A stretch of DNA of 64,000 nucleotides from Dugong dugon (lineage: Eukaryota; Chordata; Mammalia; Sirenia; Dugongidae), in assembly GCA_030035585.1 (NCBI GenBank), contig CM057462.1, positions 67,986,734 through 68,050,733 on the forward strand, given 5' to 3'. The position numbers were made by a program, and so were the translations under genes. Below, piece after piece: positions 4,524 to 61,945 of this stretch (its first letter is position 1; the number at the start of each line of letters is the position of its first letter). The notes under the pieces were generated by a model, which saw only the letters and a list, made by a program, of their open reading frames with translations, made no database searches and was not told where the DNA came from.

Positions 4524-9394
<4,871 letters not shown>

Positions 9395-15441: not shown

Positions 15442-18400
15442 TCATAGCTCATCCTTGTGCCTTGACTCACTGCCTGAGAGAGATTCTTCTACTTGTTGAT
15501 GGCGGCCCTGCTGGGCTCCCAGGGGCTGCTCCTGGGGGAGGTCCACCTCTTCGGGGCTAAAGAGCATCTTCACCAGGTCGTCTGCCTGCACTCTGTCCTA
15601 CAAGCACAAACCCCTGCCTATTCAGAGAGGCCTCCAGACCAGGTACTCTGTCTACCAGGTGGCTACTTCCTGGAGAACAGTAACGGCCTGGAGTCCACCT
15701 CCTTCTCAAAGCAGGCCTGCTCTCTGTGCAGACTGCTGAGGTGGGGCTCAAGGAGGGAACCAAGAACTCTGGACTGCTCCCCATCTCGGCACCCCAACCT
15801 ACCTGGAGCCCCATTTACAGGTAAGGAAGAAGGCCCATGGAGGATGAGGCAGTGGCCAGGGGGATATAGCTGGAGCTGGGAGTCTCTCTGGACTCCAGGT
15901 CCAGTGCTCCTTTCATGTCTAAGCCACCAGCACAAGGGTTCGGAGAAGGAGGAAGAGGGCAGGATGGGCCTTCCTGGAACAGATCACCCAGCCCACGACT
16001 CTCACCCGCTCACTGTGGCGAGGGTCCAAGGTGAACCACAGGGCGATGGCACAGCGCTGCCCCCTGGTGACAGCCTTCACTCCATGCGGGTTCTCAGTGC
16101 CTGAAGAGAATCCCACAGCCCGTCCACACTGGGGCTGCACCTCCGCCTAAGGGGGTGAAAAAAAAAGGAAGGATGTGGGGTGTGCACAGGACAAAGACTG
16201 TAACTGCCCTAAGAAGAGGTACGGGATCATTAGGGTCCAGAACTGAGGGACCCTTCAGCTTGGCTTCCCAGAGCTAACGAGAAAGGGTGACCAGTCAGAG
16301 GAACAACTGACATATCTCAAAGCCCCTCTGGTCTTGGGGGGAGCGGAGGGTGGGCACCAGGAAGCCCAACTGTCCATTATACCCCTGCACATCAGCCCTA
16401 GAACACAGGCTTTTGTCTCCAGGGCTGAGGACGAGGGGCACTCACCGTCACAGTCTTGGCATCTAGTTCAGTGAAGTAGAAGTTTCCTCCATCAAAGTCC
16501 CCATTTAGGTAAAGAATGGCACTGGGAACAGCAGAGAGCACCTCAGTATGGCCTGTCCTCCCCCCGCTGCCCAGACGACCCCCAGCATGACCTGTCCCCC
16601 CCTCCACTGCCCAGACGACCCCCCGAGTATGGCCTGTCCTCCCCCCACTGCTCAGACGACCCCCAGAGTATGGCCTGTCCTCCCCCCACTGCCCAGACGA
16701 CCCCCAGAGTATGGCCTGTCCTCCCGCCACTGCCCAGACGACCCCCAGCACCGGTGCCTTCACCTGCAGTGCTCTCAGCCAGCAGCTGGAAGGCAGCATT
16801 TCTAGGAAGAAATCTTTCAAGAGCCTTCTCTGACACCAAACAAGCCCAACTCCCAACCTTCCCTCCCCTCCACTCTGCCCCAGAGAATTCACCATGCCTT
16901 CTCTGGGTACTTCTGTACCAAGTCCACACTTCACTGTGGTACCACTGATCACACTAAGATATAATGATTCCCTTGCTGTCTATTTTCCTATCCAAGAGGT
17001 CTACGGACGAGACTGGACTCTGGGAGCAGCAGTATCAAACCAGTGTGTGTGTGTGTGTTTAGGGGGCAGGTGTAGGGCCCTGGGGGGAGTAGGGACAGAA
17101 CAGGGCCTCAGAGCGAGAGCTGGCACCTGTAGTCCCGAAACGTGTAGGCCGGGGGCTCCTTGATGCACACGAGGGCCTCGGCGTTCAGGATGCAGTTGTC
17201 CACGTGGACTGGGTGGCTACTGTCCTTCCTCTCAGCCTGTGACTCTGCGGCCAAGGTAACCACGTTAGCACTGGGGCACCTCAGGGAACACCGCAGCCCC
17301 CCTTTTGGCACGGTAAGGGGTGCTTCCCAAAATGTATCAGGGTCTAAGGCTTAAATGTCCTCCCATTACCCCCATACACTCCAAAAACTCCTATTCATCC
17401 TGCAAAACTGCCATCACATCCTCTCGGAAGCCTTCCAGATTCCCCAGGTAGATTGACTGTAACTTCCTCTGTGCTACTGTCACTTCTCAGACTGGATTGC
17501 CAGTTATTTGTTTATGTTCGGCTCCCTGACTGGAACGAAAGGGACTGAATCCTGTTCTTCTCCATGTCTCAGCATCTAGCACAGTGCCTGGTGCACAGCC
17601 TGTGCTCAATGATGCTGTGGGTGAGGAGGCCCACCTTCGATCGCAGTGCGGCACACCAGGTGGGAGTAGGAGAAGTAGAGGGGTGTGTCCAGGCGGAAGT
17701 AGGACTCCATGACGCGTCGTACCTTCTCGGTCACGTTGTAGTATAGGTGGGCACTCTGAAGGGGAACTTTCCCTTCCTGTCCCAGCTGCCAAGGAGACTA
17801 GAGGTCAGCTGCCCCCGACTGCCCCTCTCCAGGCATCAGACCCCACTCCTCGTCCCCCTGTGGAAAGAGCAGTCTCTCTGCTTCCCACACACAGCACCCT
17901 GACCACATCTCCCTTCCCCTCTCCTTCAAGTTTCTTTTCGTGAAGGACCGTGCATCCTGCTCAGAATTACAACCCATGGAATCAGCCCAGTCTCCAGACG
18001 GCATGCTCATAACTTTGGATATTGGTCTTGTCTTGCTCATACTCTTTTTATTACACGTGGTAAACTCACTCAACCTAATACACCCTCCTTCCGTGGCAAC
18101 TGGAATGTCCACAGGCAGACAACTTTACGTCTCCTACCACTGCCCCCAACTTCTCCTCAAAGCCTAAGCTTCCCCTTCCTTCCCCAACTGGGGCAGGCAG
18201 ACTCCCCCTCTCCACACAATAGAAGGCAGAGCACTGAGTCTACCTTGAGGGCTTTGAAGACAGTGACGCCATAGAACTTTTCGTTGGGGGTGTGTGGGGA
18301 GGTTTGACCCCGGTAGCCATCTCCTGCAGTTGCTGCTGCCTACAAGGACAGGAAACAAGGTGAAATTAGCCAGAGTAGCTGAGGGCCCAGTAAGAGGCAG

Positions 18401-21400: not shown

Positions 21401-24400
21401 TTCATGTGGTATTCATTTAATCTTTACAACCACCTTTTGAGGTTGATACTATGGACCTTATTTTACAAATGAAGAAACTGAGGTGCAGAAGGGATATGCA
21501 ACTTGTTTAAGGTGACACTATAGGAAGTGGTAGAGCAGGGACCTAGGTTCAAAGCCAGGTTTTCCTAATCCTCAAGCTCAAGCACTATCTGCTATGCCAC
21601 CTGCCTCCCCTAAGACTCTGGCAGCACCGCGTACCTCCGTGAGAGCAGCTGGGTCTGGCACTCTGGCCCTTCCCACGTATGCTCACCGGCAGGGCTTACC
21701 CAGGGCAGGGACACTGAACACTTCCTGGGTCACATCTCTCCCTAGGTGCCATGCCCATCAGGTGCTTGCGCACTGAGCCCTGCTAGTCTCCAAGCAGCAG
21801 AAGGAAGAGAAAAAGAAGACACAGTCAATTGAAATAAAAGACGAGGGCAGTTCAAGGAGGAAAATGTTAAAGGAGTCAACAAGTCCTGTATCATCTACTA
21901 TATTTACCCAAGAGGAAGATGACAATTTTCTCCTGAGGAATTTAAATTATTGGCTTCCTTCATTAAGTGCTAGATACCAACTTAGGTATGTCATCTCGTT
22001 TAACCCTCTCAACAACTCTATGAGGCTTCTAGGAAGCAAATCCCACTTCCATCATTTATGGTGAAGAGTACTGACTATCCCATGGACTGCCAGAAGAACG
22101 AACAAGTCTGTCTTGGAAGAAGGACAGCCGGAAAGCTCCTTAGAAGTGAGGATGGCCAGACTTTGTCTCATGTACTTTGGATATGTTATCAGGAAGGACC
22201 AGCCCCTGGAGAAGGACATCATGCTTGGTAAAGTAGAGGGTCAGTAAAAGAGAGGAAGACCCTCAAGAAGATGGATTGACACTGTGGTTGCAACAATGGG
22301 CTCAAACACAGCAACATTTGTGAGGATGGCACAGGACCAGGCAGTAATTCGTTCTGTTGTACGTAGGGTTGCTATGACTCAGAACCAACTTGGCGGCACC
22401 TAACAACATCATTTATTCACTCAACAAGTATTTATCGAGGATCAGGTACGGTGCCAGAAACTGGGACAAAGCAGGAAAACAAAGAGATTCTGGTTGCCAC
22501 TGACCAGCCACAGCCCACTAGGCAAGTTACTTTGCTCTCTAAGCTACAATGTCCTCATCTCTATAATGGGGAGAACAGCAGCCACTTCACAGGCAGGGCG
22601 GCTGTGATGAGTAAATGAACGATGGGTAAAACCACCTAGCATAGCACCTGGCTCAAGACAGGTGTTCAACAAATATTAGTTACCTCCTTCCCAGAAGGGA
22701 GTTCTGGTTTAAAATGGTAGATTGACCACATACGTTTATTTTTCCTCTCTCCCTCAGACTCACCAGTGTGACCATAAAAAAAGGGGGATGGGGGGAGGTA
22801 TTAACCAACCAAGACAAAGACACAGGAAGTGCCATCTGGTTCATATAGATGGTCACCATCTAGCGGCCAAAGAGGACAACTACAAGGTAACTGGTACACC
22901 CACGTGGGAGAGGACGGCAAGAGAAGAAAGGACCCTTGATCATTTCTACTGGAGACTCTCAGAACTCCAGAGCTAGGATGGAAGGGCCTTAGCTCTTTGT
23001 CTTCAGAGCATGGTGGTGACCCCACCTCACCAGGCTGCATGAGAATCAAATGAAATAAAGGCTCTTAAAGAATTCTATAAACTATAAAATGCTGAATACA
23101 TTTTAGGGGTGGTTATTTTGAATGACTTAGTAAGCTCCTCAATAAGTATTGGAAGTCTGTTACTGCCACATCATCCACCTGCTTCTCCCAATGAACAGAG
23201 GAAAATTAACCGCTTGAGCTGGATTACAGGTAGGGCAGAGGGCCTCTGAGGAAAGCACCCTGCTCCTCCTTCTGTGTTCCCTTGCTAGGTGAGCACTATC
23301 CCTGCTGTCTCTCAAGCTGGGAACTTGGTGCTTAGCTGGATATGAAGAGCGGGGAGGAGTGCAAACACCTCTGCATTCTGCTAATTCTTCCCCTAACTGT
23401 TCTCCTGCCTCTAGCACCTTCCTGTTCTGAGCCATCCACCATCACGTCTCGTCATGCCACTGCTTAAAGTTCTACAAGGGCTCACCACTGTTGACCCTAT
23501 GGAAGAGTGTTCAAGGTTTGGCTAGGCACTCAAGACCCATCACAATTTTACCCTCTCAGGCCTCATCGCTTGTCACTCCCCAGTATCACAGTTCACCTAG
23601 ATGGGACAATTGTCCAGGTTGTTTGCACATGTTGTCCTTTGTCTAGAAGGCCCTTTCCTGCCTCAGTTGTCTACCAAAGGCTTTTAAAACCAATCTTAAA
23701 CATCACTTTCTCTTGAAGTCTCCCTGACTTGCTCCTCAGTTGATGCTTCTCCAGGCTTCTACCGTAGCTTGGACATACCTCTATTCTATTCACTACAGTG
23801 TGCTTTAAATTTTTGTTTATATACCTTTTTTTTCCAGTCCAAGGAACTAGTCTTTTCTGTATCACCAGTGACCTAAGGTGTGTTTTAGGTGGCATTCAAA
23901 TATATAGCCAAAATAAATATATATAGCCAAAATAAATCCAGAGTATAAACAGACATAAATGTCGTGGCTATCGGTATTAGTTGCTGTTGACTAGACTCCA
24001 ACTCACGGTGACCCCACGTACAGCAGAACAAAACGTTGCCTGGTCCTGCACCATCTTTCGAGATCACTGATATGCTTGAGTCCACCACTGTGGCCACTAT
24101 GTGTTTTGAGGGCCTTCCAATCCAGGACTCATTCTCCAGCACTATGTCAGATAATGTTCTATTGTGACCCATAGGGTTTTCATTGGCTAATTTTTGGAAG
24201 TAGATCACCAGACCTTTCTTCCTAGTCTCTCCATCTGGAAGTGACACTGAAACTTGTCCATCATAGATGACCTTGCTGGTATTTGAAATACTGGTGGCAT
24301 AGCTTCCAGCATCATAGAAACACACAACCCACCACAGTATGACAAACAGACGGGTGGTGGCAGACATAACAGAAAAGTTCAAGTCTCCCTTCTTACCCTT

Positions 24401-27400
24401 GACCTGTAGGCCCACACCTCAGGAATAATTCTTATTAACAGTTTCTTATCAATCTGTCCAGGAAATTTTGAAACACATATGTTTATTTCAAAAAACATAA
24501 ACAGGATATAGTAAAATTATAGGTCTAAATCTTACTTCTTTTTTTGTCTTTACCTAAAAATAGCTCATGGAAAGCTTTTCACACTGGTGCATAGTAATGC
24601 ACCGCATGCAATATAAGAGCTGTCTGCATGTCACTGAATGAATGCACCATAATTTATTTAACCAATCCCCAAACTGATGGCAGTTAGCTTGTTTCCAGTT
24701 TTTTTTTGCCTTTTAAAACAATGTTCCAATGAATATCGTGCATTTACCTTTGCATGTATACCTGTATACCTACAGGATAAATCGCTGGCAACAGAATTGC
24801 TGGGTTGAACAGTCCAACTTACAGTCTTACCAACAGTGCACAAGTGTGCCTGTTTGCTCACTCTCTACATTTGCACAATATATCTGTTGAAAAACAAATG
24901 AATGGCCTCCAAAGTGATTGTAGCAATTTACCATTTTTTTCCCTGGCAACGTTAAAAACTAGTCCCAAGTTATAGCCATTTCTATACAGAATACAGGTGG
25001 GGTTTGGGAGAGATCAGCAGGACACAGGTGAGCAAGGTGCACACAGTGATCAGTCACACCCCCCGTGCCCTCCCCCATTTCTGGGCTGAGGTGGCTAAGG
25101 TCAGAGGTGAATAAACTGGCCATCTGCTACTTGGGTACCATCAGCAAGACCCCTGAGATGCTACATGTCCACCAAAACACTTTCTAGACACTGGCACAGT
25201 GCCTGTCAGTTTACAGAGTGCATTTATAATCACTGTCTCATTTGACCCTCATACCCACCCTGTACTGAACACACAGCAAGAATTATTATCCCATTTTAGA
25301 GAAGGGGAAACTGAGACTCAGAGAGGTGATGTGGTGGGCCTAAGATCACATACTGCTAGTATGTGGAGAAGCCGGGACTTGAGCCCAGACCAGTGACTTC
25401 AAATCCCCCTCACTGTTCTGGTCTCAAGAGTAGAGGGTGTAAGGTCTGGACAAGGTATACATATAACTATCATGTTATCAAACTTCATTAAGTTAAAAAC
25501 AGAAGACGTCTCGTGCTTTTAATTACAAAAATAATACCCATTTGCTGTAGAAAATTTAGAAAATATAAATGAGCAAAATACAAAAATCTCCCAGAAATAA
25601 CCACTGTTAGCGTTTCAGTGCATTTCATTCTAGTCCTTGCGTTATATAGATTTTCACTTGAGTGACATGGCAATAATGCTGAGAGATGGGGGAGAACAGA
25701 CAACGGCAGGAAGAATGGGATGGGGAGGAAAGAGGAGACAGCCAACAGGCGAGTGCGGGATAAAGACTGGCGTGAAGTAAGAAATGATGGCTCCTGGCCA
25801 AACGGTATTAGGTGCCAGAGAAGAGAAAGAACATGCCCGCAGAAAACAGACTTCTGGGCCCATAATGCTAACTAAGGCTCTCATCCGTTCCACTCACTTC
25901 CTATGCCCCCCTGCTCTCTGCGTGACAAGCTGTGTCAGTGCACTCACACCCAGCCCAACACCCTGCCCCACCCTGCACAAGCAGTGCTGACTCCCCTCCC
26001 ATACCCCACTCTCCTGCCCTCTGGTCTGAGGGCAGCGGGCAGCCACCCTAGCTAATGCGGGCCCCTCCCCTCACCTCACGGGGGCCAATGGATCTGGCTT
26101 GCTCCTCTCCCAGCATAGCTGTGTAGTAGGCCAGATTCTGGCTCATCACCTCATCGTTGGGGAAGAAGAGAAGATAGGTCTTGGCACATTCAATAGCCTG
26201 TGTATAATTCCCAACTGCAAAGAGGAAAAATAAAGGCTTAGAAGAAGGGGTCTAATCCTTGTGTACCAGGAACCACTTAGTGTTCAGTCCCAGCAAAGCT
26301 TGAAGACAATGACATGACAAGGTGACCCCATCCCATAACACTGCTGCCTGATTTTGGTGGGACAAGTTATAGAATATCTATAGCACATATATTTGATTTT
26401 AAGCTGTTCGATGACCTCAGGGTTGCCTAATATTGAAAATGAAAAGAATCAGAACCCTTTGTATACCCACATGTTCAATAATTCTGGCATTTCTCAAAAT
26501 CCTGGCATCCATATTCCCAATCATTGGACCAGCTTCAGGAATATTCCCCGTGTCTCCCTACCTTCTTTTCCCTATGGATTTCAGGAGAGGGGGGATATTA
26601 CAATAGCAGATCACCTTTTTGGCAAACTGGTTCTCATTCACGTGTGTTAATCACCTCAACTTGACTATGTTGTTGTGGCCATCAAGTCAATTCCGACTCA
26701 CAGTGACCCTATAGGACAGAGTAGAACTGCCCCATAGGGTTTCCAAGGCTGTCATCTTTAGAAGAGCAGATCACCAAGTCTTTTCTCCTTTGGAGCTAGT
26801 GGGTTCGAACCACTGACCTTTTAGTTAGCAGCCGAGCTCCTGATCATTGTGCCACCAGGGCTTCTTTAATCCAACTATAGAGACCTTATACTCTCAAATA
26901 CACTGTAATGTTGAGCATACAGTAGGAACTCAGTAAAGACCTGCCGATGTGTTGCTTTTTGGGATACAGATAGAGCCCCCAACAGCATTAATGCTATACT
27001 AGGAGGAAAGGCTGGGAAATGTCCCGTGAGTGGGTTTAAAATGGTAGCACACACTTACCTTTGCTATTACTTTTCATCTAAATGCATTTAATATAAATGC
27101 CATGGAAGGAGCAAGAGAGAGAGAGGTCCTAGAGACTCCTTCCCCCAGCTTTTAGCTGCTGGTACCAGCCAGTGGCTTGTAACCAAGTACCCAGGGATCA
27201 TCTGGCATGGTGTCTCCCACAGCCACAGAAAGAAGCAAGATGTGTTGAAGAAGTACAGTGGCCTTGCTTTAAGATCCTTAGTCAAAGGCAGAAGAGAAAG
27301 AGGAAAGAAGGCCTTACTGTTATAGTAGGCAAACTGCAGATAATTATAATGCGATGGCAGGAAGTCTTCAAAGGGCTTCTCTCGGCTGGGGTGGGTGGCA

Positions 27401-30400: not shown

Positions 30401-33400
30401 AAAATGTGCTACAGCTTACAATAATGCCCATAGCAAGACTTCAGTATAGCAAAGTAAGTAACACAAGTTCATACGCAGAACTCCAAATAAATCACTGATG
30501 ATCTAATGCTTAACCACATGGGCTTTGGTATCAGACAAACCAGTGACAAATCTAGGTTTTATAACTCACTTGCTGGGGGCTTTAGATAAGTTACCTAATG
30601 TTTACTCTTTAAATTCAGTTCCCTTGTCTGTCATATGGATAGCACTACCTACTTGATAGGATTGTGGAGAGAGTGAATTGAGATATATATATCTTCTAAC
30701 ACATGGTGCTGGACACCTATTAAGTACTCAATAAATCTTAGCTAGTATTATTAAGGAAACTCTGGTGGTATAGTGGTTAAGAGTTCGGCTGCCAACCAAA
30801 AGGCTGGCAGTTCGAATCCCTATAGGGCAGTTCTACTCTGTCCTATGGGGTCCCTATGAGTTGGAATCGACTCATCAGCAATGGGCTTTTTTTTTGTTTT
30901 GGTATTATTAATAAGAATTTTTTTTTCTTTTCTTATCATTGGTACTAATAAACACACACTAAACAAGGAGTCACTCCTGGTTCAGCCCTTAAAATAACTA
31001 GGTGACCTAAGGTAAATAATTCCGCATCTCTGTACTTCAGTTTCTTTAGCTGTAAGATTAGAATTTCTCCCAAGTCTGTCCCAGCTCTGGCATTCCATCA
31101 GGACATGGATCCCTTTTATGGGTGTATTCTCTCTCCCGTATCTTTCAGCATTGCTCTCATCTAATCCCTCCCCCACACCCCACTTCCCACACACCTCTCT
31201 CCCACCCTAGCCCTTTATTCCCTGAGCACTGAGGCACCTAACTTTCTTCTCTCATCTGGACAACTGCAATGGTTTCCTAACTGGTTGCCCTGCCGCCAAT
31301 TTCTCCTTCCAGGACTCTTCCCACATTGCTTCCAGAATTAGCACACTAAAACCCAATTCTGACTGTGGCTCCCTGAGGCCTGCAGAATTCTCCTCCCAAT
31401 GTGGCCTCACTTACTTTTCTAGTCTCCTCTCCTGCAACTCCCCACATACATCCAATATCCTAACCACAAAAAAGTGACTTATTTCCTGAATACATCATGC
31501 TTTGATTCTACTTTTCCCTCTACCTGGAATAGCCATCCTTCTTCTCTCCCTAGCAATATGCAGGACCACGTTCCACTGTCACCTCTTCTTTCAAACCTCT
31601 CTAATTCCTCTGAGACAAAGTGAGATTCTCCCTCCTTTGTGCGCCCACAGTCCTATGTACATGCCACTCTCATAGTCCTTACTACAGGGATTCTAAACAG
31701 CAAAGCAAAACAAAAGGTACAAAAGTCAAGCATTTTAATTATCTGTACAAGAACTGGAATGTAGTAGGTATTCAATAAATGTCAATGAATTATAGAAGCT
31801 CTGTTAGTACAGGAACAAAGACATAGCCCCATTATTTTGGTCTCAAGTCTAGTACTCCTCCCAGTAATTAAGAGGAGTGGAGGGGAACTCTGTAAGCAGA
31901 ATGCTTGTGGAAAGGTAGAAATCTGAGCTCCTCAAGATTCTCTAAGTCACCCTCTAGGTTGAACTGAAGGTCTTTTAAAACATAGATATGATAAACACGC
32001 TCCACAGCTCATCTTTTTTATGTTTAAAATTCTAGCCAGCCCCTCCCTAAGCACTCCTCTTATCTGAATTCTACATTAGAATCCACCACTTACCAGGTGT
32101 GTGATCTGGGGAAAGAAATTTAACTTCTTGGTGCCTCAGTTTCCTCATCATTAAAATTGAGCGAATAATAGCACCTACCTACCCGTTAGTGGTTAAGAGC
32201 TCGGCTGCTGTTCAAATCCACCAGCTCCTCCTTGGAAACCCTATGGGGCAGTTCTACTCTGTCCTACAGGGTCGCTATTAGTCCAAATCGACTTGACGGC
32301 AACGGGTTTGGTTTGGTACCAGGATATTGGGAGGATCAGGGCAAATGATTTAATAAACGTAAAGCGCTTAAAACAGTGCCTGGAAAATGGCACATCCTCA
32401 GTCGCATTGACTATCACTATTATCATCATTATCACATAAGGGAGGAGAGCGCAAGCCCATCTGTACACTGGAACTTACTCGGGTATTCCTAAAAACACTC
32501 ATTTTCTTTGGAAACCTGACGGACTAGCCAAAGGGTCCCCCACAGGGAGGGGCCAGACAGCCCCTGCCGGCGACGTGGCAACCTCACGTCCTGAAATGAG
32601 AGCTGCTGGACTCCGGCAGCAGGGAAAGCCTAGTGGAAAAACGAATCGGAAGGAAGATATTGTAGAAAGGTCCTAGCTTCTCAGTCGGACATTTGCAACG
32701 AAGTCAGGATGAGAGACCCACACTGCCAAATTAATTCCCTCTAGGAGGCCTCCCGGGGAACAAAAGGCCAAGTTTACTCGGCCCGTGCCTTAACCCCAGG
32801 CTGAACATTTGAGGTTAGCATTTACCTAAGCGAACCCGAGGAGGCAGGTCTCCTCGCTGGGTCCCTACTTTCCCTGGGTCCAGGGAGAAGTCAGAGGATG
32901 CTCCCCGGCCAGAAGGCCACCTTCCCTCTCCGCAGACACCTTCCCGGTCCCCTAAGCTCCCCTGGACCACGCCTTTCCCCAGAAAGGCCCTGGCCGCCCG
33001 GCCCCGGGCAGGGCTGCACCTTGAAGTAGGCGACTTGCAGGTAGTTGTAGGGGCTTCGCTTGCGGAACTCGAACTCCAGCTCCTCGCTGAGCGAGTGGGC
33101 GCTCGGCTGCCCCAGGCAGCGGCGCAGACAGGCGGCACGGCGCAGCAGGCCCCCGAAGAAGCGCAGGTCGTGCAGGGCGGCGGCGCCCGAGGCTTGGCCC
33201 GAGCTCGGGGGAGAGTAGAGGTCCAGCTCCCATGGGAGGTCGGCGGCACACCGGGTGCGGCAGCGCAGGCGGAGGGCGCGTAGGGCTGCCCGCGAGCGCA
33301 ACGCCCGCTCCATGCTCAGTACCACCCCGGCCCAGTCCCCGCGCGCATAGGCCGCAGTCCCCTCGGCAAACAGCAGATCAGGCGTCACCATGTCCCATCC

Positions 33401-33484
33401 TGCCTCGGACCCAACCTCGGCCGGTGAGGCGGCGAAGGCGGTAGCCAGCAGAGTGGTCAGCAGCATCAACGCCCATGCCGCCAT
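15442..33484 (-). CDS. P3H1: Prolyl 3-hydroxylase 1 (leprecan), 15 coding exons
   Basis: ER 2-oxoglutarate/Fe(II) dioxygenase that 3-hydroxylates collagen prolines in complex with CRTAP and cyclophilin B; human loss causes recessive osteogenesis imperfecta. Exons: 33020-33484, 29571-29723, 27655-27844, 27318-27449, 26075-26214, 20925-21014, 20552-20604, 20256-20377, 18506-18633, 18244-18339, 17635-17785, 17127-17244, 16446-16521, 16006-16146, 15442-15597. The sum is 2211 nt, 736 aa, with every phase consistent. Visible features: signal peptide at about 1-20; four CxxxC motifs (C75/C79, C119/C123, C242/C246, C278/C282) in the TPR-like N-terminal half; a charged helical segment rich in E and K (about 400-440); N-glycosylation sequons NGS and NVT; Fe ligands H587 and D589 (HVD) and H659 (ENPHG); 2-oxoglutarate-binding R669 (GQRC); C-terminal KDEL retention signal. 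The catalytic set is intact. Exon 3 has an unusual tandem acceptor and intron 12 a minisatellite (see findings). Confidence 0.98.
16546..16750. repeat. 41-bp minisatellite in P3H1 intron 12 (five copies)
   Basis: Five head-to-tail units begin at 16546, 16586, 16627, 16668 and 16709, each reading roughly GTATGGCCTGTCCTCCC then CCCACTGCCCAGACGACC and a C-run. Units 3 to 5 differ at only a few bases. The array starts about 25 bp from the exon 13 acceptor (exon begins 16521), so on the sense strand it is a G-rich tract just upstream of the splice site. Confidence 0.92.
17380..17615 (+). mobile_element. L2 LINE 3' end in P3H1 intron 11
   Basis: ACTCCTATTCATCCTGCAAA, CTCTCGGAAGCCTTCCAGAT and GCATCTAGCACAGTGCCTGG with GTGCTCAATGATG are the end of L2. 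Confidence 0.7.
18800..19075 (+). mobile_element. MIR-type SINEs in P3H1 intron 8
   Basis: Two adjacent MIR-like runs: AGCTCTACAGCTGAATGGCT near 18838, then GAGTCAGAAAGAACTGGGTT and TGACCATGGCAAGTTACTCA near 18930-18990. Confidence 0.5.
21400..21600 (-). mobile_element. MIR-type SINE in P3H1 intron 5
   Basis: TTTAATCTTTACAACCACCT, TTTTACAAATGAAGAAACTG, AGGTGCAGAAGGGATATGC and AGAGCAGGGACCTAGGTTCA are minus-strand MIR blocks. Confidence 0.75.
22085..22410 (+). mobile_element. RTE-type LINE, 3' end
   Basis: Frames show remnants of the RTE C-terminus: GYVIRKDQPLEKDIMLGK, then RGRPSRRWIDTV, the pattern of the last ORF residues of BovB/RTE elements, with stops. The end reads GGGTTGCTATGACTCAGAAC then CTTGGCGGCACCTAACAACA. 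That tail is shared in part with the SINEs of this window. It is 5'-truncated and dead. Confidence 0.88.
22495..22690 (+). mobile_element. MIR-type SINE in P3H1 intron 5
   Basis: GGCAAGTTACTTTGCTCTCT, CTCATCTCTATAATGGGGAG and GCATAGCACCTGGCTCAAGA, then TTCAACAAATATTAGTTAC. Confidence 0.75.
23440..23860 (+). mobile_element. L2 LINE 3' fragment in P3H1 intron 5
   Basis: TCATGCCACTGCTTAAAGTT, TTGGCTAGGCACTCAAGACC, TTGTCCTTTGTCTAGAAGGC and CTTTCTCTTGAAGTCTCCCT are in L2 3' order. Confidence 0.65.
23965..24400 (-). mobile_element. RTE-associated repeat (long form related to the Gly-type SINE)
   Basis: The minus strand contains AGACTAGGAAGAAAGGTCTG and GTGATCTACTTCCAAAAATT, shared with the Gly-type SINE at 13822-14112. 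It then adds an extra middle block with AGTCCTGGATTGGAAGGCCC and GATGGTGCAGGACCAGGCAA (also in the RTE end at 22085-22410) before the tail. It is probably the 3' part of an RTE element or the parent of that SINE. A 176-aa open frame across it is repeat-derived. Confidence 0.7.
24490..24900. mobile_element. Ancient L1M-like 3' fragment
   Basis: ATGCACCATAATTTATTTAA, CAATCCCCAAACTGATGGCA, CAATGAATATCGTGCATTTA and CAGAATTGCTGGGTTGAACA are typical old L1 3' sequence. Confidence 0.6.
25190..25400 (-). mobile_element. MIR-type SINE in P3H1 intron 5
   Basis: TTTATAATCACTGTCTCATT, TTATTATCCCATTTTAGAGA, GGGAAACTGAGACTCAGAGA and GAAGCCGGGACTTGAGCCCA. Confidence 0.8.
26667..26866 (-). mobile_element. 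tRNA-headed SINE in P3H1 intron 4
   Basis: Plus strand shows the reverse of the family: GTCAATTCCGACTCACAGTG, CCTATAGGACAGAGTAGAAC, AAGAGCAGATCACCAAGTC (the longer subfamily insert), then TTAGTTAGCAGCCGAGCTCC and CCACCAGGGCTTC. Confidence 0.92.
28540..28703 (+). mobile_element. tRNA-headed SINE in P3H1 intron 2
   Basis: Near-complete: GGAGCCCTGGTGGTGCAGTG, CTGCTCACCAAAAGG, TTTGAATCCACCAGGTGCTC, CATAGGGTCACTATGAGTCG and GGCAACGAGTTTGG. Confidence 0.95.
28720..29060. mobile_element. Ancient interspersed repeat, family uncertain (L1M-like)
   Basis: CTCACACAGCCATTTAAAAT, CATGTCTTCAGAGAAAATTT, GAAAAGGCTCATGACCTAAC and GTCAAAAAAGCACGATGC resemble a common old mammalian LINE tail. Confidence 0.4.
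29265..29500 (-). repeat. Interspersed repeat, second copy at 40019-40265
   Basis: The reverse complement aligns almost end to end with 40019-40265: GACAGCACACTCC, TTTAGTCTC and CTTGAGCTAAGA are shared in order. I cannot name the family; it is probably lineage-specific. Confidence 0.8.
30500..30750 (+). mobile_element. MIR-type SINE in P3H1 intron 1 side
   Basis: CACATGGGCTTTGGTATCAG, TAACTCACTTGCTGGGGGCT, GATAAGTTACCTAATGTTTA and TTAAGTACTCAATAAATC. Confidence 0.75.
30753..30885 (+). mobile_element. tRNA-headed SINE with internal deletion
   Basis: AAACTCTGGTGGTATAGTGG, CTGCCAACCAAAAGGCTGG, then the B-box region jumps straight to CCCTATAGGGCAGTTCTACT, so the CCACCAGCTGCTCC segment is missing. 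Tail CATCAGCAATGGGC. Confidence 0.9.
31230..31790 (+). mobile_element. L2 LINE 3' fragment in P3H1 intron 1
   Basis: GGCTCCCTGAGGCCTGCAGA, CACTGTCACCTCTTCTTTCA and CTGGAATGTAGTAGGTATTC with AATAAATGTCAATGAAT at the end. Confidence 0.65.
32065..32410 (+). mobile_element. MIR-type SINE split by a younger SINE (32187-32320)
   Basis: The left half has ACTTACCAGGTGTGTGATCT and CTCAGTTTCCTCATCATTAA, the right half TAAACGTAAAGCGCTTAAAA and CAGTGCCTGGAAAATGGCAC. Between them lies a tRNA-headed SINE with GTTAAGAGCTCGGCTGCTG and CTACAGGGTCGCTATTAGTC, also internally deleted. Confidence 0.85.
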
Positions 33485-33800
33485 CGCTTCCGCAAACCTA
33501 ACGGCACCGACCGGTTGCTAGCAGCCACCGAGACCAGAGTCCCACCCCCGGAGAAGCCCCTCCTCCGAGTGAAGTCCCTTCTCCCGAGCCGTGCGACGCA
33601 TGTCCAATAGGTTCGCACGTCTCTAGCTTTCGACCAGCCTGTACCCCGCCCCTCAGCTGGAGCCCCGCCTCCGAGCTCCCGCCGAGCTGTGCACCTCTGT
33701 TGCCCAATGTCTAAGGAATACGGAGGCTCGGTCCACGAGCCTTAAGCGCATGCTCTCTCTACTTGCACCGCCCTGGTGGTAGTGAAGGTAGGGCGTCGTC
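33485..33800. promoter_or_regulatory. Bidirectional promoter of P3H1 and C1orf50
   Basis: The two start codons diverge and are only 316 bp apart. The interval and the flanking first exons are GC- and CpG-rich, the usual form of a housekeeping divergent promoter. Visible elements: CCAAT at 33604-33608 and 33704-33708, Sp1-type CCCCGCCCC at 33644-33652 and CCCCGCCTC near 33663, and an NRF-1-like GCGCATGC at 33746-33753. No TATA box was seen. The P3H1 start lies in a YY1-like GATGGCGGC context. Which factors bind is inference. Confidence 0.85.
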
Positions 33801-42343
<8,543 letters not shown>

Positions 42344-55870: not shown

Positions 55871-56391
55871 TTCATTTTTTAAAATTTTCATGTCGTCCCA
55901 TACTGGGGCTAGGTCTGATGCTCTGGTTGGGGCCTGTCAGAGTCAGGGAGTGGGCTTGGACTGTGGTACAAAATGGCTTCCTGACTCTACTTCTCCCTCA
56001 AGCCAACTCTTAGTCTGTGACAAAGGGCTCATCTACCTTTTGTACCTGGCCTATGGGGTGCCAGGAGGGTCAGTATATGGGCTGGAGGGAGGTCTGTGTC
56101 ATGGGCCAAGGGGTACAGTCAGAGAGGGAGTGGAAACTGGTTGTGTTGCTTCACCTACTTTGCTATTGAGCTTTCCCAAGATACTCTGTCTTCAGCACCT
56201 GCTTTCACCCCCTGGGTCTGGGTCTCCTCCATCTACCTTCTGCCTACCTTAGTCCAGCCAGTGAAACAGAATGTTGGGAGGGTGCAGCTCTGTGATGAGG
56301 TTTAAACAAACAGGAGCTACAAGGTCCCTGGGAGCCTCCTTTGGGACTCTTTGACCTTGAGAACCCCCTGCCCCTCTCCCCCGAGCCCCAG

Positions 56392-59300
56392 GTCTGAGTC
56401 AGTGCACCAATTTCTTCCTGGCCCACGACCAGAGCCACCCCCGGCTGGATGAATCTTCCTGCAAGGATATTGCCAATGCCTTGTCCCTGGTCAACATGGT
56501 CCTGGGGCTCTTCTCCATCTTCTGCAGCTTCTACAGGTAGGCATGGGGCCCAGCAGGCTGTCTGTCAGAGCTCGAGCCAAGGGCATGGAAGGAGAGGGGG
56601 AGTTAGAGAGCCAGGCCCTGAGGCCTAGGGGTCAGCTAGGTGCAGGGGAAAGTGCAGTGGTTGGGAATCACGGGGCCAAGGTCCTAGCCTCATTTCTACC
56701 ATCAACCTGATATGTGACCTTGGCTGGGTCACATCCCCTTCCTGGGCCTCGGTTTCTCTATTTGTAAAACAAGGAGCTTATGCTATGACCTCTATAATTC
56801 CTTCCAATTCTATCAATTTAGAATAGTTTTTATGATAAAATCAAGAAATTCTGTTCCTCTGGCTTTAACACCATAGTGGGGTAGGCGACTATTCATATTT
56901 TCTGATTCTTAAATTAGAACATATGGTCTGACAGGTTATTTGAAATGAGCATGTTCTGGAAAATCTGAGACATGTATATGTCTTCCCCCGAAACTGTAAG
57001 TGAATTACATTCCTGTAAATTGAGTCATATTTCAATGCCCTTGGGAAATCAACTCTTTAAAAGACAAATCCTTCAGACTGCAAGTAACACCCTTCTAATC
57101 TGGTTCTCTATAACTTTCAGCAAGTAACTTCTCTTTGGATCTGTTTCTCATCCATAAAATAACATGTTTTGACCTGATGACATTTAAGCTCCTTTTCACC
57201 TTGAAATTTATATGATTCTCTAAGTCAGGGCTTTCAGAGCTCCACAACGTGGTGCACACCTGCAGCAGAAAATCTCTTTTCTTAGTTTAGCATATTCTTC
57301 TGGGAGTGTTTTCTTTTTCCCACCATGGTAAGTGCAGTATGTTTATTTAGCCTTAGTTCACTTTAGATCCATCGGCATGGGTCTAAGCAAAGGAAACACT
57401 ACAGTTGTTTGGGGATTGCAGGGTCTAGGGCCAGGCTCTCTGTGGGCTTGTCTGGGCCATACAGTAGGCCAGGGGCCAACTTGGGAAGGAAGGGGCATCC
57501 TGGCATTTGCCTGGGACTGTGGTAACACCTCACAGGGACCTGGGAGCAAGTGCTAGCTAGACACAGAATCTTCAAATGTGGGGTCTGGAAGAGCCCTTAT
57601 AAATCACTTAGCCCCTGCCCCTCATTTTACAGATGAGGAAAAGAGGCCTAGACGGGAGAGACTTATCTGAAAATTCACAGCGAGATGGTAGTAGAGGCTG
57701 GGCTGGAACCAAGCCCCCTGCATGGTGGAAAATGCCTGGAATTTAGAGCTGGTAGGGACCTTAGTGATTGTCTGGGGGGGGGGGGGGCGGGGTCAGAGGA
57801 CCCCCTTTAAGGCTGTGGGTTGAGAGTATTGGAGGGACGTAGGCATGTGTGAGGGTGTGTGTTTGTGAGGGTATGGGGGGGAGTAAGCAGTGTGTATGTG
57901 TGTGTCAGAAAGGGTGGGACTATGGATCACGTGCAGGGATGTGTGGATGTGAGCAAGCATAGGAAGTGTGTAACAAGTGTATTAGTGTACTGCGGGGACA
58001 TGGAGTGGTGCTCCGCGGGAGACCGTGAAAGGGCTGCCCTGTTCTGGCCTGGCCTACACTCTAGGAAATCCCACTGTGCCTCCTGGCTGCTTCTCATCAG
58101 CTTCCTGTTAGACATGGCAGTCGGGACGATGACCAGGCACCTCAGCAGCTGCTCTAAATCGAGTAAGTCCAGGCCTCAGACCACTAATCCCTGCCTCCTG
58201 GAGCATCCATCTCAGGTCACCAGCTCCATCCTCTAATACCCAGCAGGCCTTCGTCAGTCACCCACTCCTGCCACACTCCTCAGAGTACAGCAGGAAAAGC
58301 CCCAGAGCAGGAGTTAGGGAGCCCCTCCCCCAGTCTAGATCTGGCCCCTCTGCTGGCTCACTTTATGGTCTTCCGCCAGTCCTTGCCCTGGCTTTCAGCT
58401 TCCTTGTCTGTCCTGCCTGCCTGTTCAGGGCTGACCCAGGTGCTGGTGGTGGGGATAGGGTGGAGGGCAGGTGGGGGTGGCCAGGGAGTGGGAAGGTGAA
58501 AAAATTACCCAAAGAGAGCAGCTGCTTTAAAATGTTTCTATGTAAGATTTTGCTTGAAAAAGGGACTTCATAGCTTATTAATTAGTATTTAATTTCAATC
58601 CAATCCTTTCATGCTAAAGAAGGGAAAAGTAAGACAGGCAACGGAGAGACTTGCCTAAGGCCACATGGTCAGTTGCAGCAGAGCCGGGAGGAAACCCCAG
58701 TCTTTGGTCTAAGACCACCCTGGGGGAGCAGCTGTTGCTGCCTGAACCTCAGGACCCCACTTGTCCGCCTCACCCCTCCAACTCTCCCACCAGAGGGGCT
58801 AAGGTGCAAGGTGTGTGAGTGCACGTTCTTCTAACCTTTTGCCGTCTGGAGCAGGAGCTGAGCTGAACGACTTCGCTGTCTTCACCACCTTTGGCCTGGC
58901 CTCAGCCTTGCTCCTAGGAATAGGTGGGCCTCTCAGTGGGCTCCTGGCCATCATGTATGTGTTAGCTACTTCTTTCCGCCTGTGCTTTTTCTCAACTGGT
59001 GAGTGGAGTCCTGGAAGCCTTGGGGATGAGGGTGGGGAACCACAGAGGGAGTGGAGCTGTTGGATGCCAGAAGCTGAGGTGCAGTGACTAACTTGTCTCT
59101 TTCCTTCCTGGAGCCCGTCTTTCTTCCTTCTCCCGTGCTGCATGCCTGCTGGAGGCTGCGGGCTGCCTTGGCAGAGCCCTGGGCCGAGAGGCAGAAGCCC
59201 TAGGCTCTTGACCTAGCTCTCCCTTTGTCTCACTGTGTGACCTTTGAATGGAGCACATCCATTCACAGACTCTAGAACTGGAGGTCCTACCATGAAACAG

Positions 59301-61945
59301 GTGAAACTGTGCTCAGCAGAGGCCAGTTGCCTTGTCTAAGGTCACAGAGGGAGGGAGTGCAGATACAGCTCAGGCCTTAGACTAGAAGATCTCAAAGACC
59401 CTCTTAGCAGAGACTCCTTGGGGCCAGGGCACACCCCTGGTCCTAGCTGGCTGCCTGCTTTGCCTTAGAAACCCAATGCAAAATGCACCATTAATGCAAC
59501 CCAGTGTATCACTTCTGTCTGTGAATTACCAAATGCTTTACAGCCTGCCACCCCCTACCCCTGAGTTTAAGGGAGTTTTGTAGTCTGGGGAGGGGAACAC
59601 CCTGAGAGAGGGACTTGCTTCATTTAGATATACCTTTGGAGCAGTAGAGAGGTCCCTCAGTGGCACAAATGGTTTATCCTTGGTTACTAATCAAAAGGTT
59701 GATGGTTTGAACCCACCCAGCAGTGCTGCAGAAGAAAGGCCTGGTGATCTGCTTCCATAAAGAAAACCCTATAGAGCTCAGTTCTACTCTGTAACACCTG
59801 GGGTTGTCATGATTTGGACCCGATAGTGACAAGTTTAGTTTTTTTTTTTTTTAGAGCAATGGGAAGCAGCTAATCCTCATCATTTCTTTCCCTGGCAGGA
59901 GTTCCCTTCATATACAAGGGTCTACCCTGCTCCTACGCTTCCTGTGTTTTGGCCTCCACCTCTCTTCTGACCAAAGGCAACACATTCATTCTCTGCTGCG
60001 TGGCTTCGCTCATGATTCTATTCATGATGGACCAGACCTACTATCCCCATGAAGAAATCTTGGAGTCTGAGAACTGGAAAAAAATCATTTATCTGGGGGG
60101 TAAGCGCTCTTAAATGTTTCCAGTGGTGGGTTTGTTATCACTGTCACTCAGCGCCACCTTGTACCTCACCCCAGCATTCCCTATTTCACTTACTCTGCTT
60201 AATTTTTCTCCAAAGAATTTATTATCATCTGATAAAATATATATTTACTAGTTTTCTTATTGTCTATAAGCACTAAACCTACCTCCCCCACAGAAATGTA
60301 AGCCCCTTGAGGGTAGGGACTCTTTTATTCATGCTGTAATCCCCAGTGCCTAGAATTATGCCAATCACATAGTAGTTGCTCAATATTTGTTGAAAATTAT
60401 GAGTTGTTCCCATGGAAGTGCTGTGGGCCCATACTCTCCCATCTTCTTTTCGAGTTCTCTGAGGGAGTCTAAGTGTCTAGTTTTTTAAGAGTCACGCAGA
60501 CCTGGGTTTGAATCAGGACCTTGTACAAATTACATCCCCCATTTCCTCACCTGAAAAATATGGTTAATTCTTAATCACAGAATTGTCATGAAGTGTAAAT
60601 GAAATAATATATGTAACATACCTAGCAGCATGTCTAGCACAAGAAATATATTTCACAAATGTTGGTGCCCTTTGCCTTTAGGTAGTGAAACAGGTACAAA
60701 TTGTGTCAGGAATCCTCAAGAGCACTCCCAGGTTTGGTGATTTGGTAGAAAGACTCACAGGACTTAGCATATAGTCATTCTCATGGCTAAGATTTATTAC
60801 AGCAAAAGGATACAAAGCAAAATCAGCAAAGGGAAAAGGTACACAGAACAAAGTTCAGAGGAAACCAGACACAAGCTTCCAAAAGTCTTCTCCCAATGGA
60901 GTCTGACAGGACGAGCTTAATTCCTCCAGCATTGGATTGTGACAATACATGTGAATTGTTGTCTACCAGAGAAGCTCATTAGAGACTCAGTGCCCCAGGT
61001 TTTTATTGAGGCTTGGTCACATAGGCATCCTCTACCTAGCACATACCAGAATTCCAGACTCCTAGAAGGAAATCAGGTGTCCAGCATACACTTCTTTGTT
61101 TGTACAGTCTAGGCACACTGAGCCACTCTTATCAGTTAGGAAAAGTTTTGTATTAGCATAGGGATCTATTTACCATGCACGTTCCTAGTCGCCAGCCAAG
61201 GGCCACCCAGGCCTTTTTAAGGATAGCAGGCTTAGGCCTGCTTATGTCAGCTCTTTTCTGCAACAGATGATATTGTATTGGCCAATAACACATGTTAAAC
61301 TTGAAATAATTAGGAAGATTTTTTTTTTTTTTTTTTTTTCCCGAATAAGGGATCTGGGCTATTCCAATTTATTGTTTAGGACTAATGTCTGATCTGAGTT
61401 TGACAATTCAGTGGAATCTGATCCCATTATGTTATAAAATTGTCTACTTACTTACCAACCAGTTGCCATAGGGCCAATTCTGACTCATGGTGACCCCATA
61501 GTGTCATAGTAAAACTGTTCATAGGGTCTTCAGTGGCTGATTTTCGAAAGTAGACTACCAGACCTTTCTTTTAAGGTGCCCCTGGGTGGACTTGAAACAC
61601 CAACCTTTAGATCAACAGTGAGCACTTTAACCATTTTAAAGTGAGCTTCTTAAAGACAGGACTTATGTCTCATTTGTTTTTGTCTCTTAGGCACTGTGAG
61701 TAAAAAAGGAAGGATGGAAGGAATGACATGGCGCAATGGGGATGGGGGGGGGGTGGAAAACACATAAGAAAGCTCGTAAAAATTGAGTGTTTGCATGTCT
61801 TCTTCCAGGTGTCATCATGCTGTTTTTGTCTCCATTCTCTCTGACTCCTCTTTACTGCCTGCTGTGGTCCGTCTCCTACATCTTCTTTCCAGATTCTCTG
61901 TGGGGAAAGACAACCTGTCTCAGGCCACAGCACCGAGGAAACTAA
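56392..61945 (+). CDS. TMEM269: TMEM269, multi-pass membrane protein resembling PssA-type CDP-alcohol phosphatidyltransferases (5' exon not found)
   Basis: Five exons join in phase: 56392-56536, 58065-58162, 58855-58998, 59899-60099 and 61809-61945 (TAA), about 241 aa. The first enters mid-codon (phase 1), so an upstream coding exon is missing. The symbol rests on position after C1orf50. About six to seven hydrophobic segments are visible: NALSLVNMVLGLFSIF, WLLLISFLLDMAVG, FTTFGLASALLLGI, GLLAIMYVLATSFRL, ASCVLASTSLL, TFILCCVASLMILFMM, and a final segment VIMLFLSPFSLTPLY. Their order and spacing follow bacterial phosphatidylserine synthase (PssA): NALTLLN-like start, signature, a YV(L/A)..LR block, then GLP. 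The signature DxxDGxxAR(8)G(3)D(3)D is in exact register but degenerate: D-V-G-T-R, then R, N and V where G, D and D are expected. Catalysis therefore looks lost; lipid binding or a regulatory role is inference. The tail is short with no ER signal. A possible poly(A) signal lies at 62577-62582. Confidence 0.85.
56640..56800 (+). mobile_element. MIR-type SINE in TMEM269 intron
   Basis: GGGAATCACGGGGCCAAGGT, ATATGTGACCTTGGCTGGGT and CGGTTTCTCTATTTGTAAAA. Confidence 0.65.
59645..59845 (+). mobile_element. tRNA-headed SINE, long subfamily, in TMEM269 intron
   Basis: GGTCCCTCAGTGGCACAAAT, CTAATCAAAAGGTTGATGG, GAAAGGCCTGGTGATCTGC, CAGTTCTACTCTGTAACACC, ending 35 bp before the T-rich stretch that precedes the exon at 59899. 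Confidence 0.88.
60170..60400 (+). mobile_element. L2 LINE 3' end in TMEM269 intron
   Basis: CAGAAATGTAAGCCCCTTGA, GGGTAGGGACTCTTTTATTC, CCCAGTGCCTAGAATTATGC, TTGCTCAATATTTGTTGAA. Confidence 0.75.
60480..60670 (+). mobile_element. MIR-type SINE in TMEM269 intron
   Basis: GTCACGCAGACCTGGGTTTG, TTCCTCACCTGAAAAATATG and GCAGCATGTCTAGCACAAGA. Confidence 0.65.
61455..61640 (-). mobile_element. tRNA-headed SINE, long subfamily, in TMEM269 intron
   Basis: Reverse order: CCAGTTGCCATAGGGCCAAT, GACTCATGGTGACCCCATAG, AGTAGACTACCAGACC, CACCAACCTTTAGATCAACA, CTTTAACCA. Confidence 0.9.

Follow-up and report, generated by a model that had tools for sequence, protein, structure and literature searches.

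Gene content and exon structure of the locus

The window analysed is a 64,000-nucleotide stretch of the dugong genome (C3:67986734-68050733 of 3.16 Gb), and a single species was examined. Family matches within it were a claudin within 8804-9394 (minus strand), a leprecan within 32891-33517 (minus strand) and three DUF2452 exons at 40901-41002, 41484-41660 and 42143-42286. These are followed by a gene resembling phosphatidylserine synthases (PSS) and, about 17 kb beyond the window end, by a CCDC23-family match on the minus strand. We take DUF2452 to represent the C1orf50 family and the CCDC23-family match to be SVBP, so that the order found here (claudin, leprecan, DUF2452, PSS-like gene, CCDC23 family) agrees with the human 1p34.2 order (CLDN19, P3H1, C1orf50, TMEM269, SVBP). 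This gene order fits a tentative assignment of the PSS-like gene as TMEM269, the name that we assume for it below. The coding exons recovered for this gene were as follows.

56392..56536, plus strand: coding exon 1, bounded by an AG acceptor and a GT donor and open in one frame of three; contributes residues 1-47 plus two bases of codon 48, comprising the N-terminal stretch with the first hydrophobic segment (KDIANALSLVNMVLGLFSIF)
58065..58162, plus strand: coding exon 2, carrying the second hydrophobic segment along with the signature's first half, D64-x2-V67-G68-x2-T71-R72
58855..58998, plus strand: coding exon 3, which completes the signature (R81-x3-N85-x3-V89) and continues with TTFGLASALLL and the SFRL block
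59899..60099, plus strand: coding exon 4, GVP..KGLP block and more hydrophobic segments
61809..61945, plus strand: last coding exon, with the stop TAA at 61943-61945; residues 193-240 are placed here by the genome protein search

Together the five exons form one open frame of 240 codons, with AG acceptors throughout and GT donors on the first four. In each of exons 1-4 a single one of the three frames is open, always the phase-compatible one, and two frames are open in exon 5. Codon 81 spans a splice junction (58162 + 58855-58856) and reads AGA, so that exons 58065-58162 and 58855-58998 join in phase. An earlier sequence-only reading had proposed both an intact coding frame and this in-phase junction; the open frame and canonical splice sites bear out the former, and the AG/GT borders and codon 81 support the latter as a predicted join. 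That reading had placed the gene at 56392..60099, a span that does enclose four of the exons and omits both exon 61809-61945 and the upstream start. Traced upstream of its acceptor, the exon 1 frame meets a stop at 56358, which indicates that translation would start in an upstream exon or, less likely, at methionine 35. The upstream exon is favoured, since residues 24-34 align to PSS: with them the PSS profile gives 51.2 bits, and with a start at methionine 35 only 43.2.

Searching the dugong's own genome with the protein, with 15 candidates scored, returned the five exons and one weak match, and no second gene copy was found. The weak match (E 0.04), considered as a paralogue or retrocopy, proved to be repeat-rich sequence with stops and was rejected. 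It contains repeats that look similar to a SINE, presumably Afrotherian from its appearance, at 59640-59840 in the intron preceding the 59899 exon.

Elsewhere in the window, a 242-codon open stretch at 38323-39051 (plus strand) had weak endonuclease matches (PF03372, 3.1e-4; PF14529, 1.4e-3), both below cut-off, and looks like a LINE-type retroelement fragment. Two minus-strand open stretches gave no match in the Pfam search: one of 181 codons at 313-858, which by eye we take to read like a retroelement endonuclease, and one of 177 codons at 23885-24418, in a region with no assigned gene, which could be a retrocopy or chance. Minisatellites were observed at 8976-9170 (43 bp x 4.5), inside an open stretch continuing from the claudin match and probably intronic, and at 16545-16748 (41 bp x 5.0). 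An Rfam scan of the whole window gave no match.

Relationship to phosphatidylserine synthases

The best NCBIfam match of the translated protein was the archaetidylserine synthase model TIGR04217 (42.5 bits, 6.1e-11, residues 26-204; curated cut-off 200 bits), and pssA TIGR00473 scored 33.6 bits (3.8e-8). The five models listed were three archaetidylserine synthases, pssA and one archaetidylinositol phosphate synthase, all far under their curated cut-offs. Glycerol-type, cardiolipin and choline models were absent from the NCBIfam matches listed, from which HMMER filters hide most weak matches; a genuine Paenibacillus PSS also matched several of these absent models, far more weakly than the serine models. 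The Pfam family PF01066 was matched at 20.2 bits against a curated cut-off of 22 (8.4e-4), with one other, insignificant, match. A single-sequence search of the PDB gave two weak matches (E 0.32 and 0.47), both to the PSS of Methanocaldococcus (M.) jannaschii, with which 38 of 145 aligned residues are identical.

A profile was built from 59 of 60 bacterial PSS rows, one being left out because it was a duplicate or had an unclear residue, and gave the dugong protein 51.8 bits. The maximum among 2000 shuffles in ten-residue windows, which preserve the hydrophobic pattern, was 13.3 bits, the maximum among 2000 full shuffles was 7.1 bits, and for the reversed protein no profile match was reported. 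With none of the 4000 shuffles above 13.3 bits, the score of 51.8 bits makes homology to the CDP-DAG-dependent PSS of bacterial, archaeal and fungal type secure at the level of sequence comparison. Core similarity is thus significant and indicates family membership by descent, though the NCBIfam and Pfam scores lie under the curated cut-offs. The PssA-type relationship proposed from the sequence alone is in agreement with the NCBIfam, PDB and profile results and the shuffle control, and alignment to PSS confirmed that four flanking blocks follow PssA order. From this homology the dugong protein would be expected to form a CDP-alcohol phosphatidyltransferase fold, which has a six-helix core in PSS structures. 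Kyte-Doolittle analysis gave six hydrophobic segments, as against seven or eight in the four bacterial PSS rows scored.

The family signature DxxDGxxAR(x8)GxxxDxxxD was compared among relatives. A prokaryote scan with the single dugong protein yielded no relative among 97 pattern matches, and one with a two-row alignment yielded 61 relatives among 105. These 61 bacterial loci were found by patterns outside the signature, although the full signature or its second half then served to select their frames; 60 carry the full signature, and the remaining one lacks the first half, next to a base that cannot be read. All are named as Paenibacillaceae and near kin, a restriction that follows from search patterns taken from a Paenibacillus row. 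The plasmid search gave one record, nine stretches of viral contigs matched the pattern with no relative among them, and no relative was found in phages. In the dugong's own genome, the full signature was present in two of three PF01066 exon matches, the third being a stretch without any signature to judge. The own-genome PF01066 loci L002 and L003 are presumably choline/ethanolamine-type CDP-alcohol phosphotransferases.

Active-site residues of the dugong protein

The signature positions of the dugong protein, with the corresponding residues of M. jannaschii PSS where these apply, were as follows.

58111..58113, plus strand: D64, retained first aspartate (Asp41)
58120..58122, plus strand: V67, replaces the second aspartate (Asp44)
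58123-58125, plus strand: G68, kept
58132-58134, plus strand: T71, replaces the signature alanine
58135-58137, plus strand: R72, kept (Arg49)
58162 + 58855-58856, plus strand: R81, replaces the later glycine
58866..58868, plus strand: N85, replaces the third aspartate (Asp62)
58878..58880, plus strand: V89, replaces the fourth aspartate (Asp66)

Signature spacing is exact; three of the eight residues are kept (D, G and R) and five are changed, so that the protein does not carry the signature of an active enzyme. All eight residue calls of the sequence-only reading were recovered, at the same coordinates wherever it gave them. The fourth aspartate, Asp66, is proposed to help in activating the acceptor (PMC8633023). 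In M. jannaschii PSS, calcium is reported to be bound by Asp41, Asp44 and Asp62, magnesium by Asp41, Asp62, Ser65 and Asp66, and the acceptor serine to be contacted by Asp62, Ser63, Asp66 and Phe105 (PMC8633023). Mapped onto that enzyme, the dugong protein keeps Asp41 (D64), Arg49 (R72), Arg101 (R122) and Phe105 (F126) and has changes at Asp44 (V67), Asp62 (N85), Ser63 (D86), Ser65 (A88), Asp66 (V89) and Arg104 (F125). Hence only 4/10 residues coordinating metals, CDP-DAG, serine or chloride are kept and 6/10 are changed, which leaves it without the residue set of a functional PSS.

Published mutants bear directly on these replacements. Every motif change in M. jannaschii PSS is reported to lower or abolish activity; D44S, D62N and D66S lose activity that magnesium restores negligibly or not at all, D41S, D62S and D66N are partially rescued by magnesium, and R104E loses about half of the activity (PMC8633023). 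Not every ligand change is thus fatal by itself. In Candida Cho1, activity is described as nearly abolished in D125A, D128A, G142A and D150A and as one fifth in D146A, while G129A has about half and R133A is normal (PMC8727905). Four of these five most sensitive Cho1 positions are changed in the dugong protein, namely the second to fourth aspartates and the later glycine.

A wider set of positions was taken from 14 bacterial rows, a manual selection out of 69 loci (the 61 above, L004 and seven plasmid loci from the 30 listed of 125 records). The dugong protein keeps 17 of the 35 near-invariant columns of this alignment, in which invariance of the signature is partly by construction because frames were picked by the signature itself. 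Twelve of the 17 are glycine, alanine, leucine or phenylalanine, and 4/6 near-invariant glycines and 4/6 near-invariant alanines are kept. This composition matches the expectation if packing rather than chemistry has been retained.

A probable pseudoenzyme and its possible roles

The dugong protein is probably PSS-derived and catalytically dead in this animal, its descent being indicated by the profile comparisons and its inactivity by the residues and the published mutants. It would be a multi-helix membrane protein descended from a CDP-DAG-dependent PSS, in which replacement of the second to fourth aspartates, Ser63, Ser65 and Arg104 (M. jannaschii numbering) would preclude phosphatidylserine synthesis. 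Loss of the ligands, taken together with the mutant data, makes PSS chemistry very unlikely. The sequence-only reading of a catalytically dead protein holds to the extent that residues are replaced whose single mutation strongly cuts or abolishes PSS activity in M. jannaschii or Candida; as a statement about TMEM269 in general it is qualified by a paper on sole, which names phosphatidylserine synthase activity for tmem269 (PMC7569605).

This paper describes the protein as one "with phosphatidyl serine synthase activity" and its expression as raised on a low-phospholipid diet (PMC7569605). It raises the possibility that aspartate loss is lineage-specific: fish or other vertebrates may keep a working CDP-DAG-dependent synthase, with aspartate loss confined to the line leading to mammals or to this lineage, whose copy may be drifting. 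We regard this as possible, though somewhat doubtful, and it is compatible with a PSS-derived, inactive protein in the dugong; if fish do keep the active site, the event of interest becomes a loss within vertebrates. The activity label, however, for which the passages on it give no assay, is probably annotation by similarity, and a frame that has canonical splice sites and stays open for 240 codons does not resemble advanced decay. An enzyme with altered chemistry, or with a metal site rebuilt from D64, D86 and E83, could be imagined from the retention of D64, R72 and R122, from D86, which occupies the Ser63 position next to the third aspartate that was lost, and from the partial magnesium rescue of some single-ligand mutants. 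Both metals lose ligands together here, however, whereas D44S, D62N or D66S alone is already reported to be inactivating (PMC8633023), and valine, present at two ligand positions, cannot bind metal, all of which makes continued catalysis improbable. A chance product of hydrophobic helices is a still more distant explanation of the PSS resemblance and can nearly be dismissed: scores of membrane proteins may be inflated and the two PDB E-values are indeed poor, but none of the 4000 shuffles, half of them preserving the hydrophobic pattern, came near, curated PSS models were significant and signature spacing is exact.

For the inactive, PSS-derived protein favoured here, the most likely mode of action, suggested tentatively, is non-catalytic: the former cleft for CDP-DAG and lipid, or else the dimer surface, might bind a partner protein or a phospholipid, perhaps in the membranes of spermatids and ciliated cells. 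The sequence-only reading had likewise named lipid sensing or partner regulation as roles that a kept fold might serve. We take 4930538K18Rik to be mouse Tmem269. High levels of 4930538K18Rik are reported in testis and oviduct, with a peak at the elongating-spermatid stage (PMC4502369). TMEM269 was also recovered as a non-promiscuous two-hybrid partner of FAM183b from a testis library, in a study whose pull-down confirmation is reported only for another partner, NUP93 (PMC6168554), and in salmon the TMEM269 gene is named beside cfap44 among temperature-responsive genes (PMC13142024). A ciliary promoter was sought as X-box-like sites: six were present in the window, with three mismatches each and 3.4 expected by chance, and none lay beyond 29009. 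The absence of such a site near the gene leaves a ciliary or spermatid role as a hint. A broader scenario, in which vertebrates inherited a CDP-DAG-dependent phosphatidylserine synthase of prokaryotic or fungal kind that still works in some fish and in mammals has become a pseudoenzyme serving reproduction or cilia, appears rather unlikely; if true, it would provide a traceable transition from enzyme to pseudoenzyme within vertebrates. To our knowledge, vertebrates are held to make phosphatidylserine by base exchange only.

Compared with PssA/Cho1 and M. jannaschii PSS (PDB 7b1k, 7pow), the dugong protein shares block order, signature spacing, the first aspartate, Arg49, Arg101, Phe105 and the GLP block, and differs at aspartates 2-4, the signature alanine, the later glycine, Ser63, Ser65 and Arg104. 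Archaetidylserine synthase (TIGR04217) is its best-scoring curated profile, but the dugong protein scores far under the cut-off and has lost the catalytic residues. With the mammalian choline/ethanolamine-type CDP-alcohol phosphotransferases it has PF01066 in common, but those enzymes keep the whole signature in this genome and the dugong protein is nearer to PSS. Mammalian PTDSS1/2 make the same product as the presumed ancestral enzyme and are assigned to a different superfamily, Lipocone (PMC12419801); finding a PSS-type relative in a mammal is therefore noteworthy, whether it is active or inactive.

The literature search found no title on function among works naming TMEM269, no paper on pseudoenzymes of the CDP-alcohol phosphatidyltransferase superfamily and, to judge from titles and selected passages of the records on the gene, animal PssA and family pseudoenzymes, no paper on inactivation of TMEM269. 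The relation of TMEM269 to PSS is already at least partly on record through the sole paper (PMC7569605), and the dugong protein is probably a pseudoenzyme of a known family rather than something categorically new. An inactive PSS-derived protein would be a membrane pseudoenzyme within the CDP-alcohol phosphatidyltransferase superfamily. Part of the interest in fungal Cho1 as a drug target is that the host is said to lack it (PMC11077991). A mammalian protein of the Cho1 family, even an inactive one, is relevant both to that claim and to off-target binding.
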